A program made the translations under genes and the position numbers. The notes beneath the pieces were generated by a model that was not told the DNA's origin, did no database searches, and saw nothing but the letters and a program-made list of their open reading frames with translations. From assembly GCA_018262815.1 (NCBI GenBank), contig JADFDN010000018.1, positions 1-36,628 of the forward strand: DNA of 36,628 bases, written 5' to 3'. The stretch's first letter is position 1, and every line of letters begins with the position of its first letter. Positions 8,031-12,500 of the stretch are shown here, piece by piece. The DNA is from Thiobacillus sp. Its GTDB lineage: Bacteria > Pseudomonadota > Gammaproteobacteria > Burkholderiales > Thiobacillaceae.

Positions 8031-8327
8031 ATGCCGCGCGAGCCCAGCCAGACCGCCGCGCGCGCCACCCTTCCGGCATGGTTCGTCTACATGCTGCGCT
8101 GTGCCGACGGTTCGCTCTACACCGGCATCACCACCGACGTCGTCCGCCGCGTCGCCGAACACAATGGCGAGGGCGCGCCGGGTGCCCGCTATACCCGCAG
8201 CCGCCGGCCGGTCGAACTGGTCTACCTCGAGGCCGCAGCCAGCCGTTCGGACGCCACGCGCCGCGAGACGGCGATCAAACGGCTGGATCGCGAGCGCAAA
8301 CTGGCATTGTGCGCCGCGGGGCGATAA
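8031..8327 (+). CDS. GIY-YIG nuclease-superfamily protein (UPF0213/YhbQ-like)
   Basis: A 98-residue single-domain protein. The GIY-YIG pattern appears as WFVYMLRCADGSLYTGIT (residues about 16-33), followed by DVVRRVAEHN, ARYTRSRRPVELVYLE and the ETAIKRLDRERK tail typical of the YhbQ/UPF0213 group. Such small proteins are thought to act on nucleic acids; their cellular role is mostly unsettled. The ATG at 8031 is 14 bases downstream of the haem lipoprotein stop, so co-transcription is likely, but a shared function is not obvious. It converges on the patatin-like gene with 14 bases between stops. Confidence 0.85.
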   Translation: MPREPSQTAARATLPAWFVYMLRCADGSLYTGITTDVVRRVAEHNGEGAPGARYTRSRRPVELVYLEAAASRSDATRRETAIKRLDRERKLALCAAGR

Positions 8328-8341
8328 ACGCCGGCCCCGTT

Positions 8342-9292
8342 TCAGCTGTCGCTGACGCCGTTTAACCGTGCCTGCAAGGACGGCAGGGCGGCGTCGACCG
8401 CCCGCCGCCCGGCATCGATGGCGATCGCGGCGCGGTGAAACTCCATCAGTCCCATATTCGCCAGTTGCGGCGTCAGCAATACGTCGGCCGGTTCGCCGGC
8501 CAGCCGGCTGCGCGTGATCAGCACCTGCATGATGTTGATGCTGCTCGCCAGCACGTCGAGCATGGCGGGTGGTTCGGGTCCGTCGCGGTGGTTGATGCCG
8601 AATTGCGACATGCCGGCCTGGATGCGTGCCATTACCGTATCGGCCAGGGTGTCGGGTTCGGGCGACGCGCGCGTGCGTGTCGCCCGGGCAGGCTTGGGCC
8701 TGAGGTGGCGACCCAGCAGATCGGAATTGAGATCGACGGCGATCACGACGTCGGCGCCCATCGCGCGGCATAGCGACACCGGCACCGGATTGACCAGGCC
8801 GCCGTCGACCAGCCAGCGGCCGTCGCGCTGCGTCGGCGTGAAAAGGCCGGGCAGCGCGATCGAGGCGCGCACGGCATCGGTCACCCGGCCTTCGCGCAGC
8901 CACACCTCGCGGCCGCGCTGCAGGTCGGTGGCGACGGCGCCGAAAGGGCGCTCCAGCTCGCCGATGTCGCGGTCGACAAAATGGCTGCGAAAGAAGCTGA
9001 TCAGCTTGTCGCCCTTGATCAGCCCGCTGCCCAGCGAAAAATCCAGGAAGCTCACCACCGTCTGCAGGCGCAGGCCGAGAACCCAGTTCTCCAGCCGTTC
9101 CAGTTCGCCGCCCACGTAGGCCGCCCCCACCAGCGCCCCGATCGAAGTGCCGCAGACGATGTCCGGCTCGATCCCGGCCTCGGCCAGCGCGCGGATCACG
9201 CCGACATGCGCCCAGCCGCGCGCCGAGCCGCCGCCCAAGGCCAGGCCAATGCGGGAGCGGGGTGGCGCCGTGGATCGTCGTGTCGCATTCAT
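8342..9292 (-). CDS. Patatin-like phospholipase, RssA/NTE type
   Basis: A 316-residue cytoplasmic serine hydrolase. The oxyanion motif reads GGGSARGWAHVG (residues about 20-31), the nucleophile elbow is GTSIG (Ser50), and the catalytic aspartate lies in WLVDGGLVNPVPV near residue 160. This Ser-Asp dyad layout is that of the bacterial RssA/YchK group. The C-terminal third includes a low-complexity Arg/Pro/Ala stretch (RHLRPKPARATRTRAS) and a helical tail. The likely role is hydrolysis of lipid acyl esters. The start at 9292 has no clear ribosome-binding site. The downstream stretch toward 9610 belongs to a separate element on the same strand. Confidence 0.88.
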   Translation of the reverse strand: MNATRRSTAPPRSRIGLALGGGSARGWAHVGVIRALAEAGIEPDIVCGTSIGALVGAAYVGGELERLENWVLGLRLQTVVSFLDFSLGSGLIKGDKLISFFRSHFVDRDIGELERPFGAVATDLQRGREVWLREGRVTDAVRASIALPGLFTPTQRDGRWLVDGGLVNPVPVSLCRAMGADVVIAVDLNSDLLGRHLRPKPARATRTRASPEPDTLADTVMARIQAGMSQFGINHRDGPEPPAMLDVLASSINIMQVLITRSRLAGEPADVLLTPQLANMGLMEFHRAAIAIDAGRRAVDAALPSLQARLNGVSDS

Positions 9293-9415
9293 GTGGCTAG
9301 CTTAACCGGCTTCCAGTCGATCGGCATCCGGCAGCCAGGACTCGTCTGGATCGCGCGGCCCGGGCAGGTATTGCGGACAGGGAAGCGGAGAAGTGTGCCC
9401 AGCAGGATTGCGGGC

Positions 9416-9444
9416 AAAAAAAAACGGCCCCGATCAGAGGCCGT
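9416..9444 (-). terminator. Intrinsic terminator (minus strand)
   Basis: On the minus strand ACGGCC (9444-9439) pairs with GGCCGT (9429-9424) around a 9-base loop and is followed by an unbroken run of T (9424-9416). This is the clearest rho-independent terminator in the window. It would end either the ribonucleotide reductase transcript or a separate small RNA. Confidence 0.8.
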
Positions 9445-9505
9445 GTACAGGAGGAGCTTGCATATTCGAGGCTTCGATCCCTTGAAGCGGATGGCTGGAT
9501 CAATC
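9416..9505 (-). ncRNA. Candidate small RNA with anti-Shine-Dalgarno linker and intrinsic terminator
   Basis: Reading the minus strand, a promoter-like pair (TTCACA at 9539-9534, 16-base spacer, TACAAA at 9517-9512) would start transcription near 9505. The RNA would then contain a stem-loop (GCTTC 9488-9484 with GAAGC 9475-9471, 8-base loop). An unpaired linker with CTCCTCC (9456-9450) follows, then a terminator stem (ACGGCC/GGCCGT, 9444-9424) and nine T. This stem-linker-terminator layout with an anti-SD linker is typical of trans-acting bacterial sRNAs. It could instead be the processed 3' end of the reductase mRNA, whose stop is at 9610. Motifs are seen; the RNA is inferred. Confidence 0.42.
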
Positions 9506-9609
9506 CGGTTGTTTGTATCTCGTGTTGCCAGCCTGTGAATTCATTTGCGGCTGCCGCCCGGAAAACTTGAGGCGCATTTCGCCTGAAGGGCTGCGGATGC
9601 TCCGCTGCC

Positions 9610-11343
9610 TTAATCCGCCTCGCGTTCAAGGCCACAGCAGTGGATCTGTTCGCCCGCGGGCGGCTGGCTGAGAATGGCGCCGGTCACGGGGTTGGGGCGA
9701 AACACGGTGCATCCCTTGAGCCCCAGCGCATGTGCCTGCCGGTAGAGGTCGGCGAAGCGCTCGAACGGCATGTCGGCGGCGACGTTGATGGTCTTGGAAA
9801 TGGCGTTGTCGACGAAAGGCTGCAGCGCGGCCTGCATCTGCAGATGGGCACGCGGGTCGATCCGCTGCGCTTCGACGAAAGCGGGCGGCAGGCCTGCGCC
9901 CTGCTGCTGCCACAGCTGGCAGGCGTAATCGACCACGCGGTGAAGGCGATATTCGCCGTCGCTTCCCAACACGCGGCGCTCCGCCTCGGCGGCGAAAACC
10001 GGTTCGACGCCGCTGGACAGGTTGTTGGCCAGCAGGCTGATGGTGCCGGCCGGCGCGATGGCGAGAAGATGGCTGTTGCGGATGCCGTGCACGGCGATGG
10101 CATCGCGCAGGTCGGCCGGCAGCCGGCGGGCGAAGCCGCTGGCCAAAAAGGCCTCGGCTTCGAAGGCGGGGAAGGCCCCTTTCTCGCGGGCGAGCCCGAC
10201 CGATGCGCGATAGGCGGCGTCGCGCAGCGTCCGCATCGCGGTGGCGGCCAGTTCACGCGCGGCGTCGCTGTCATAACCGAGGCCGAGCATCACCAGCGCG
10301 TCGGCGAGCCCGGTGATGCCGAGCCCGATGCGTCGCGTACGCCGGGCCTGCCCGGCCTGCGCCGGCAGCGGATAGCGCGATACGTCGATGACGTTGTCGA
10401 GAAAGCGCACCGCCGTCCCTGCCGCATCGGCCAGTGCGTCGAGGTCGAGCCGGGCCTCGGCCGCGTACGGCGAGATCACGAAGGCAGTCAGGTTGAGCGA
10501 GCCGAGGTCGCAGGCGCCATACGGCGGCAGCGGGATTTCTCCGCAGGGGTTGGTGGCGGTCAGCGTTTCGCGATCGGCCAGCGTGTTGTCGCGGTTGATG
10601 GTGTCGACGAACAGTACGCCGGGCTCGGCCGTGTCGTAGGCCGCGCGCAGGATGCGCTGCCACAGTTCGCGCGCCTTCACCGTGCGCGCCTCGACAAGAC
10701 CGGGAAACACCAGCGGCCAGTCGCCGTTGTTCGCCACGGCCGTCATGAAGGCGTCGCTCACCAGCACCGACAGGTTGAAATGCCGCAAGGCCGTAGGATC
10801 GCGCTTGGCGTCGACGAAGCGCTCGATGTCGGGATGATCGCAGCGCAACGTCGCCATCATCGCGCCGCGCCGCGCACCGGTCGACAGCATGGTCGCGCAC
10901 ATCGCGTCCCAGATGCGCATGAAGGACACCGGGCCCGACGCGATGCTACCGGTGGCGGTCGCCACCGTCCCGGCCGGGCGCAGGGTGGAAAAGTCGTAGC
11001 CGACGCCGCCGCCGTGTTGCATGGTGAGCGCGCCTTCCTTCAGCGCCTCGAAAATGTGCTCGAGGTCGTCGGCGATCTCACCCATCACGAAGCAGTTGAA
11101 CAGCGTCACCCGGTGGCCGGTGCCGGCGCCGGCGAGAATGCGTCCGCCGGGCAGGAAGCGGAAATCGTCGAGCAGCGCGGTGAAGTGCTTGATCCATTGC
11201 TCGCGTTCAGCGTTTTCGGCCTGTGCGATCGCCTCCGCCACCCGCTTCCAGGTGGCGCGCATGTCGGCTTCGCCGGTGGCGCGGTAGCGGGTTTCCCAGA
11301 TGTGGCGGGAAATGTCCATGCGAAAAGGATCGTTCGTCGTCAT
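9610..11343 (-). CDS. nrdJ: Adenosylcobalamin-dependent (class II) ribonucleotide reductase
   Basis: A 577-residue protein that reduces ribonucleotides to deoxyribonucleotides using adenosylcobalamin to create a thiyl radical. The active-site pattern is intact: Cys84 in TLFNCFVMGE and Cys278 in GACDLGSLNL are the likely redox pair, and NPCGEI (Asn265, Cys267, Glu269) carries the radical cysteine. The phosphate-binding segment PAGTISLLANN lies near residue 450. No ATP-cone precedes the catalytic core, which makes it shorter than many NrdJ proteins. The tail ends with adjacent cysteines (HCCGLEREAD) that could act as the reductant pair. The ATG at 11343 is preferred; an ATG at 11319 is possible. 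It is divergent from the SrkA gene. Confidence 0.9.
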   Translation of the reverse strand: MTTNDPFRMDISRHIWETRYRATGEADMRATWKRVAEAIAQAENAEREQWIKHFTALLDDFRFLPGGRILAGAGTGHRVTLFNCFVMGEIADDLEHIFEALKEGALTMQHGGGVGYDFSTLRPAGTVATATGSIASGPVSFMRIWDAMCATMLSTGARRGAMMATLRCDHPDIERFVDAKRDPTALRHFNLSVLVSDAFMTAVANNGDWPLVFPGLVEARTVKARELWQRILRAAYDTAEPGVLFVDTINRDNTLADRETLTATNPCGEIPLPPYGACDLGSLNLTAFVISPYAAEARLDLDALADAAGTAVRFLDNVIDVSRYPLPAQAGQARRTRRIGLGITGLADALVMLGLGYDSDAARELAATAMRTLRDAAYRASVGLAREKGAFPAFEAEAFLASGFARRLPADLRDAIAVHGIRNSHLLAIAPAGTISLLANNLSSGVEPVFAAEAERRVLGSDGEYRLHRVVDYACQLWQQQGAGLPPAFVEAQRIDPRAHLQMQAALQPFVDNAISKTINVAADMPFERFADLYRQAHALGLKGCTVFRPNPVTGAILSQPPAGEQIHCCGLEREAD

Positions 11344-11423
11344 GCGAGTGCGATGTAAGGCGGCGTTTGAGGCATTATCCGTTTGTCTTGTGCCCTTTGA
11401 GCATAGCCGCTCTGCAGCAACCC

Positions 11424-12407
11424 ATGATGGATGCGTCCCACCCCTATTCCGCGCTGACGCCCGACTGCGCACTCGACGCGCTCGACAGCACCGGCCTCGG
11501 GACCGATGGCCGTCTGCTGGCCCTGAACAGCTACGAGAACCGCGTCTACCAGATGGGGGTGGAGGACGGCCTGCCGGTGGTGGTCAAGTTCTACCGTCCC
11601 GGGCGCTGGAGCGATGCCGCCATCGTGGAGGAGCACGCGTACACGATCGAGCTTGCCGCGCGCGAGATTCCGGTGGTCGCTCCGCTGGCGTTGAACGGCG
11701 CCACGCTGCACGCCCATGCCGGCTTCCGCTTCGCCGTCTATCCCAAGCAGGGCGGGCGCATGCCCGAATTCGACCGCGCCGACACCCTGCAGTGGATGGG
11801 GCGTTTCCTCGGCCGCATCCATGCGGTCGGCGCGACCGCCGGGTATGCGCAGCGGCCGACGCTCGACCTTGAAACCTTCGGCTATGTCTCGCGCGATTTC
11901 CTGCGCGACGGCAACTGGCTGCCGGCCGACCTGGTGGCCGCGTGGGACAGCGTGGTCGAGCATGCGCTGCAGAACGTGGCGCATTGTTTCGAGCGGGCGG
12001 GGACGGTGCGCGCCATCCGCCTGCACGGCGACTGCCATGCCGGCAATGTGCTGTGGACCGAGGCGGGACCGCATTTCGTCGATTTCGACGACAGCCGCAT
12101 GGGCCCGGCGGTGCAGGATCTGTGGATGCTGCTGTCCGGCGAACGCGACGAACAGCAGGTGCAGATGAACGAGATTCTCAAGGGCTACGAGGACTTCATG
12201 GAATTCGATCCGCGCGAACTGCATCTGGTCGAGGCGCTCAGAACCCTGCGGCTGATCCATTACGCGGCCTGGCTGGCGCGCCGCTGGGACGACCCGGCTT
12301 TTCCCGTCGCGTTTCCATGGTTCAATACGCAGCTGTACTGGCAGGCGCGCATCCTCGAATTGCGCGAGCAGATCGCGCTGATGGACGAGCCGCCGCTGGT
12401 GGCGTGA
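11424..12407 (+). CDS. srkA: SrkA (YihE)-type stress response serine/threonine kinase
   Basis: A 327-residue protein, close to the length of E. coli SrkA. It has the aminoglycoside-phosphotransferase-like kinase fold: SYENRVYQMG (N-lobe loop), VVVKFYRPGRWSDAAI (ATP-lysine), EEHAYTIELAAREIPVVAP, the catalytic loop LHGDCHAGNVLW and the metal-binding FVDFDDSRMGPAVQDLWMLL. SrkA phosphorylates proteins and limits programmed death during stress in enterobacteria; the role here is inferred by family. Two consecutive ATG codons occur at 11424 and 11427, and no strong ribosome-binding site is seen. It is divergent from the reductase gene and followed by a palindromic repeat. Confidence 0.9.
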   Translation: MMDASHPYSALTPDCALDALDSTGLGTDGRLLALNSYENRVYQMGVEDGLPVVVKFYRPGRWSDAAIVEEHAYTIELAAREIPVVAPLALNGATLHAHAGFRFAVYPKQGGRMPEFDRADTLQWMGRFLGRIHAVGATAGYAQRPTLDLETFGYVSRDFLRDGNWLPADLVAAWDSVVEHALQNVAHCFERAGTVRAIRLHGDCHAGNVLWTEAGPHFVDFDDSRMGPAVQDLWMLLSGERDEQQVQMNEILKGYEDFMEFDPRELHLVEALRTLRLIHYAAWLARRWDDPAFPVAFPWFNTQLYWQARILELREQIALMDEPPLVA

Positions 12408-12420
12408 AACACTATTTTTG

Positions 12421-12484
12421 TCCGCGAAGGACGCGAAGAAACGCGAAGTTGACCCGCAGTGTTTTTCTTCGCGTCCTCCGCGGA
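12421..12484. repeat. Palindromic GCGAAG-rich dispersed repeat, copy 1
   Basis: The left arm at 12421-12438 (TCCGCGAAGGACGCGAAG) pairs with 12467-12484 with a single mismatch, around a 28-base centre that holds a third GCGAAG unit and a short T run. A related copy lies at 35539-35609. It is flanked by a stop codon and a start codon and resembles REP-type intergenic palindromes. Confidence 0.75.
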
Positions 12485-12500
12485 TGAGGGGGTTTAAGGC

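Follow-up and report, generated by a model that had tools for sequence, protein, structure and literature searches.

A probable deletion scar between nrdJ and a patatin gene in Thiobacillus: the leader of a lost binding-protein gene joined to its terminator

The nrdJ-patatin intergenic region

The window, the whole 36,628-nt stretch of DNA analysed here (Thiobacillus sp., GCA_018262815.1, contig JADFDN010000018.1), carries on its minus strand a class II ribonucleotide reductase gene followed by a gene for a patatin-like protein; on these neighbours a preliminary description, made from the letters alone, was right. The same description saw in the gap between them a small RNA gene unexplained by any protein, an account that fails because the gap is most probably what is left of a gene still present at this place in relatives. 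The features, all on the minus strand, are:

8342-9292: patatin-like phospholipase (RssA type), the next gene downstream; PF01734, with NF007623 barely above its cut-off
9413-9474: probable 3' UTR of the lost gene, with its terminator; best window match of the 3'-end profile, E 6.5e-8
9416-9444: intrinsic terminator, a GC-rich 8-pair stem (9444-9424) and then a T run to 9416
9416-9536: predicted RNA of ~121 nt, placed from promoter position and terminator, if the σ28-type promoter is active
9450-9456: CTCCTCC, proposed in the preliminary description as an anti-Shine-Dalgarno (anti-SD) seed; the same in the sister genome
9475-9489: probable deletion junction zone, between the two profile matches
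9490-9573: probable promoter and leader of the lost binding-protein gene; best window match of the five-leader profile, E 1e-9
9544-9570: likely σ28-type promoter, TCAAGTTT-N11-GCCGCAAA, 14/16 to consensus and identical in the sister genome
9610-11388 (start approximate): nrdJ, adenosylcobalamin-dependent (class II) ribonucleotide reductase; PF02867 and PF00317, with TIGR02504 above its cut-off

The window's own genome (G000) and its sister (G008), both Thiobacillus, are 82% and 70% complete, and G008 is 94% identical in the NrdJ part. Only these two of the 56 genus genomes searched match the stretch over its whole length; five other genus genomes, G041 and G061 among them, give short matches only. 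An Rfam scan of the window gave no family at or above its gathering score, and the stretch has no match in the plasmid collection. NrdJ was detected in 47 of the 56 genomes, and the DNA downstream of nrdJ was compared at 45 loci (G003, at 52% identity, and the partial G019 were left out). At about 30 of these nrdJ abuts patatin directly; a few show other gaps or genes. At one locus (L022, G006:C116) the patatin gene that follows nrdJ looks shortened in its interior.

A binding-protein gene in five relatives

Five of the 45 loci (in G063, G001, G069, G042 and G007) hold a gene of about 290 codons between nrdJ and patatin. Its product in G063 matches a phosphonate-type periplasmic binding domain (PF12974, E 3.5e-35); matches of this protein to TIGR01098 and PhnD stay below their cut-offs. 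In the draft genome G001 the gene is broken (L042, G001:C50), with a stop codon in frame near codon 29 and a frame that is lost near codon 235: this is apparently an intermediate stage of decay, and a sequencing error could also produce it. In trees, the two genomes that carry the scar described below form one clade, with support of 100/100 for nrdJ and 100/99 for patatin. The gene-bearing genomes are scattered, and the deeper branches are weakly resolved; thus, the distribution calls for numerous losses or transfers. The gene is probably old at this place and was probably lost many times, with transfer possible too. In G021 (79% complete; L169, L214, G021:C24), a genome in which no nrdJ was detected, the binding-protein gene lies upstream of a patatin frame.

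A leader joined to a 3' UTR

One profile was built from the leaders of the five gene-bearing relatives and another from the 3' ends of four of them, G042 being left out. In the window, each finds its best match in the nrdJ-patatin gap, the second-best matches standing at E 0.9 (leader) and E 0.047 (3' end). The two matches follow each other on the same strand and in the right order, between the neighbours that flank the gene in its bearers, and are 15 nt apart; coding sequence and ribosome-binding site must therefore be gone. This result does not hang on G001, the nearest relative in sequence: without it, the leader profile still matches best here, shortened to 9574-9529 (E 5e-4), and the 3'-end profile still matches best at 9486-9416 (E 3e-6). 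Across the 45 downstream regions, both profiles select the identical seven, namely the five that bear the gene and the two scars; two further regions turn up only at E > 3. The 3' end of G042 is a weak match (E 0.0079 among the 45 regions, 0.12 among the 80 loci of the named collection), and in that collection the matches are the same four known cases, G063, G069, G008 and G042. Sequence comparison thus establishes the homology of both halves, their order and orientation, the synteny and the absence of the gene from this place. Homologues elsewhere in G000 and G008 are distant (at best 22% and 24% identity, respectively); since the assemblies are 82% and 70% complete, the gene could sit elsewhere in these genomes.

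There is a strong case, then, for taking 9573-9413 (minus strand) as a scar left by deletion of the binding-protein gene, with a terminator that would end nrdJ transcription and a promoter that may yield an RNA of about 120 nt. Relatives have the phosphonate-binding-type gene between nrdJ and patatin together with a promoter/leader and a terminator that belong to it; in the G000/G008 lineage the coding part and the ribosome-binding site would have dropped out, which joined leader to 3' UTR. The terminator may now also stop nrdJ transcription before it reaches patatin, and the surviving σ28 (FliA) type promoter, if active, would drive the leader-trailer RNA. The literature searches turned up nothing on this locus and nothing on an sRNA that arose by such a fusion, which does not prove that no such paper exists.

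An alignment suggested that the last codons of the lost gene survive at the junction; a shuffle test lent this no support, and 9495-9466 has no significant match to the coding 3' ends of the relatives. Neither profile matches the ~170-nt gaps of G022 and G023, which are not recognisable as scars of the same gene, and a weak match in G031 proved to be only a terminator of similar build that follows a different gene. The scar also contains a 9-codon ATG frame, but its ATG is missing from G008.

A probable σ28-type promoter in the leader

Which promoter may survive in the scar? The block common to the leaders matches what we take to be the consensus of the flagellar σ28 (FliA). The site at 9570-9544 is the best of this type in the window, where the next scores 12, and a score of 14 was reached by none of 2000 resampled gaps, for a motif picked after the block had been seen. 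Among the gene-bearing leaders, those of G063 (TCAAGTTC-N11-GCCGAAAA) and G042 (TAAAGTTC-N11-GCCGAAAA) likewise score 14 of 16; the score is 13 for G069, with a spacer of 12, and for G007, and 12 for G001.

The consensus with at most two mismatches occurs 22 times in three genomes, against five times for the reversed pattern. The frames downstream were inspected for 19 of the 22 matches, and a scan of ten of the proteins shows the motif upstream of flagellar and chemotaxis genes of the genus: it identified FlgM, CheR, two MCPs, a protein of the FlaF family and a pair of single-domain response regulators, presumably CheY-like. The other three are an EAL/HDOD protein, a protein of outer-membrane transport and one with DUF1631. 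A strict form of the pattern gives 12 matches in 10 genomes and none when reversed; four of the 12 are at this locus, four lie in a coding stretch that we take to be pyrB-like and four are upstream of another gene. Each scar genome has two FliA-family sigma genes above cut-off, one of those in G008 being incomplete, and both have flagellin-family genes. Two strong FliA-family sigma genes are seen in G000 (G000:C149, G000:C92) and recur in many of the 56 genomes of the genus. Seventeen regions upstream of flagellin-family genes reach best σ28 scores of just 10-12 of 16, and the genus may therefore use more than one motif. Because of these low scores, and because the scar's -10 element departs from the σ28 consensus at two places, both the identity and the activity of the promoter are uncertain; its likeliest type is σ28, with a predicted transcription start near 9537.

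The preliminary description had placed the start near 9505, behind a σ70-type promoter whose -35 box would contain 9537. The letters of that pair are present as described (TTCACA at 9539-9534, 16 nt, TACAAA at 9517-9512, minus strand). As a σ70 promoter they score 9/12, with a -10 that lacks the final T, and 12 sites in the window score at least 9/12 with spacers of 15-19; a strict scan of 8300-12500 reported no σ70 site. The five gene-bearing leaders do not have the pair where they align with it, and a σ28-type site lies just upstream; for these reasons it is probably not the promoter.

The terminator and the RNA that it may end

The terminator at 9444-9416 is real, and the preliminary description read it soundly as a stem followed by nine T; the stem has eight pairs here, against the six counted there. 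Homologous terminators stand in four gene-bearing relatives, and the long U tail is common to the relatives' mRNA terminators. Together, promoter-like site and terminator plausibly form a short non-coding transcription unit that frames about 120 nt without a gene, and a short RNA from the locus is possible.

The remaining parts of the ~90-nt RNA first proposed fare less well. Its upstream stem-loop and overall fold are no better than chance (z -0.01; 97 of 200 shuffles as good). CTCCTCC is indeed present; it stays mostly unpaired when 90 or 121 nt are folded and half to four fifths unpaired when 105 nt are, but it occurs at chance frequency (four times in the window, against ~4.2 expected from dinucleotides) and differs in most of the relatives' aligned 3' UTRs.

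Is the scar kept by selection?

When G000 is set against G008, 8 of 160 sites in the scar (9416-9576) are changed, compared with 307 of 2311 fourfold sites (Fisher p 0.0013). Divided into parts, with limits drawn after the block had been seen, the changes number 1/33 in the promoter block, 5/54 at 9490-9543, 2/45 at 9445-9489 and 0/28 in the terminator; taken singly, the terminator alone differs from fourfold sites at p < 0.05. Past the terminator (9415-9293), 15 of 68 sites are changed and 55 bases are gapped or N. Other non-coding stretches diverge by 0.035-0.154, their limits coming from an approximate gene call in which some genes were overlooked. Since some of these spacers diverge as little, the scar is conserved without being exceptional, and selective constraint on it is only suggestive.

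One reading of this pattern is that only the terminator matters: it would now serve nrdJ, which lies immediately upstream on the same strand, while the leader remnant would be silent debris on its way out. The unchanged terminator, the less clearly constrained remainder and the off-consensus -10 make this fairly probable, even though the promoter block is little changed as well and still scores 14/16. About 30 of the 45 relatives do without such a terminator, since their nrdJ and patatin abut, and thus it is not needed in general.

Alternatively, the fusion could have given birth, through loss of the coding sequence, to a σ28-dependent sRNA that selection has kept in two Thiobacillus species and that acts in trans on mRNAs. 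Retention of both promoter-type site and terminator in two species, the low overall divergence (p 0.0013), the FliA-family sigma factors and flagellin genes of both scar genomes and a precedent in E. coli (UTR-derived σ28-dependent sRNAs; PMC10578931) speak for it; nonetheless this reading is doubtful, given that the body at 9490-9543 drifts in a manner indistinguishable from fourfold sites, that some other spacers are equally conserved and that the arrangement was found in two genomes only. Were it true, the RNA would be the leader of a motility-regulon binding protein fused to its own 3' UTR and terminator.

The σ70-driven, trans-acting RNA of ~90 nt with a CTCCTCC anti-SD seed is very improbable: its largely unpaired word in the 90-nt fold, unchanged in G008, and its long U tail would suit such an RNA, but word and fold are at chance level, the promoter pair is missing from the aligned gene-bearing leaders and from the strict scan, the U tail also belongs to the relatives' mRNA terminators, and G069 is the one gene-bearing relative with a comparable C/T run ahead of its terminator.

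Relation to known remnants and small RNAs

Pseudogenes and other remnants of gene loss preserve flanking sequence of a gene that is intact in relatives. The deletion scar proposed here does so too, but differs in that the loss coincides almost exactly with the coding part, which leaves promoter-type site and terminator as a compact unit. Leader-trailer fusions of this kind mimic sRNA genes, having a promoter-type site, a short body, a terminator and a U tail and no protein; comparative checks should therefore come first wherever such a locus is to be named an sRNA. With an active residual promoter, this one would offer a testable case of a bacterial sRNA arising from a protein gene in one deletion.

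By analogy, the scar RNA, if expressed, would work most like the UTR-derived σ28-dependent sRNAs of E. coli, which are reported to be expressed and to have tested effects (PMC10578931). It would share with them an origin in the UTR sequence of a former mRNA, a promoter of the flagellar sigma-factor type and an intrinsic terminator; unlike them, the candidate unit comes from coding-sequence loss, does not lie within an intact mRNA and is read from sequence. Two anti-SD systems are more distant. The CCUCCUCCC-motif sRNAs of alphaproteobacteria (alpha-r14, 'cuckoo', a name that occurs in the reference list of the source) have three hairpins with CCUCCUCCC unpaired in each (PMC10746234). Common to both is a C/U-rich word complementary to Shine-Dalgarno sequences; here it is a single CTCCTCC in a linker, at chance frequency, with no three-hairpin architecture and no Rfam match. 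NmsRA/NmsRB of Neisseria meningitidis also have a UC-rich stretch between stem-loops; they are reported to carry two single-stranded, UC-rich anti-SD regions, conserved in >7,335 genomes and tested by mutation (PMC5362039), in contrast to one word in 2 genomes that is mostly not kept in the relatives' aligned 3' UTRs and so lacks the features of that family.

The binding protein may also be of interest in its own right. Several Thiobacillus genomes have a phosphonate-binding-type gene behind a σ28-type motif (L013, L044, L046, L054), and no transporter genes were seen between nrdJ and patatin at these four loci. Judged from sequence, the protein may be a chemosensory binding protein; a gene for it under a σ28-type promoter would link it to motility or chemotaxis in Thiobacillus. 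Homologues of 56-60% identity occur at other places in other genomes (L173, L174, L175), each near a long frame with what we take to be a GGDEF-like motif, and these frames hint at a signalling partner for the binding protein.
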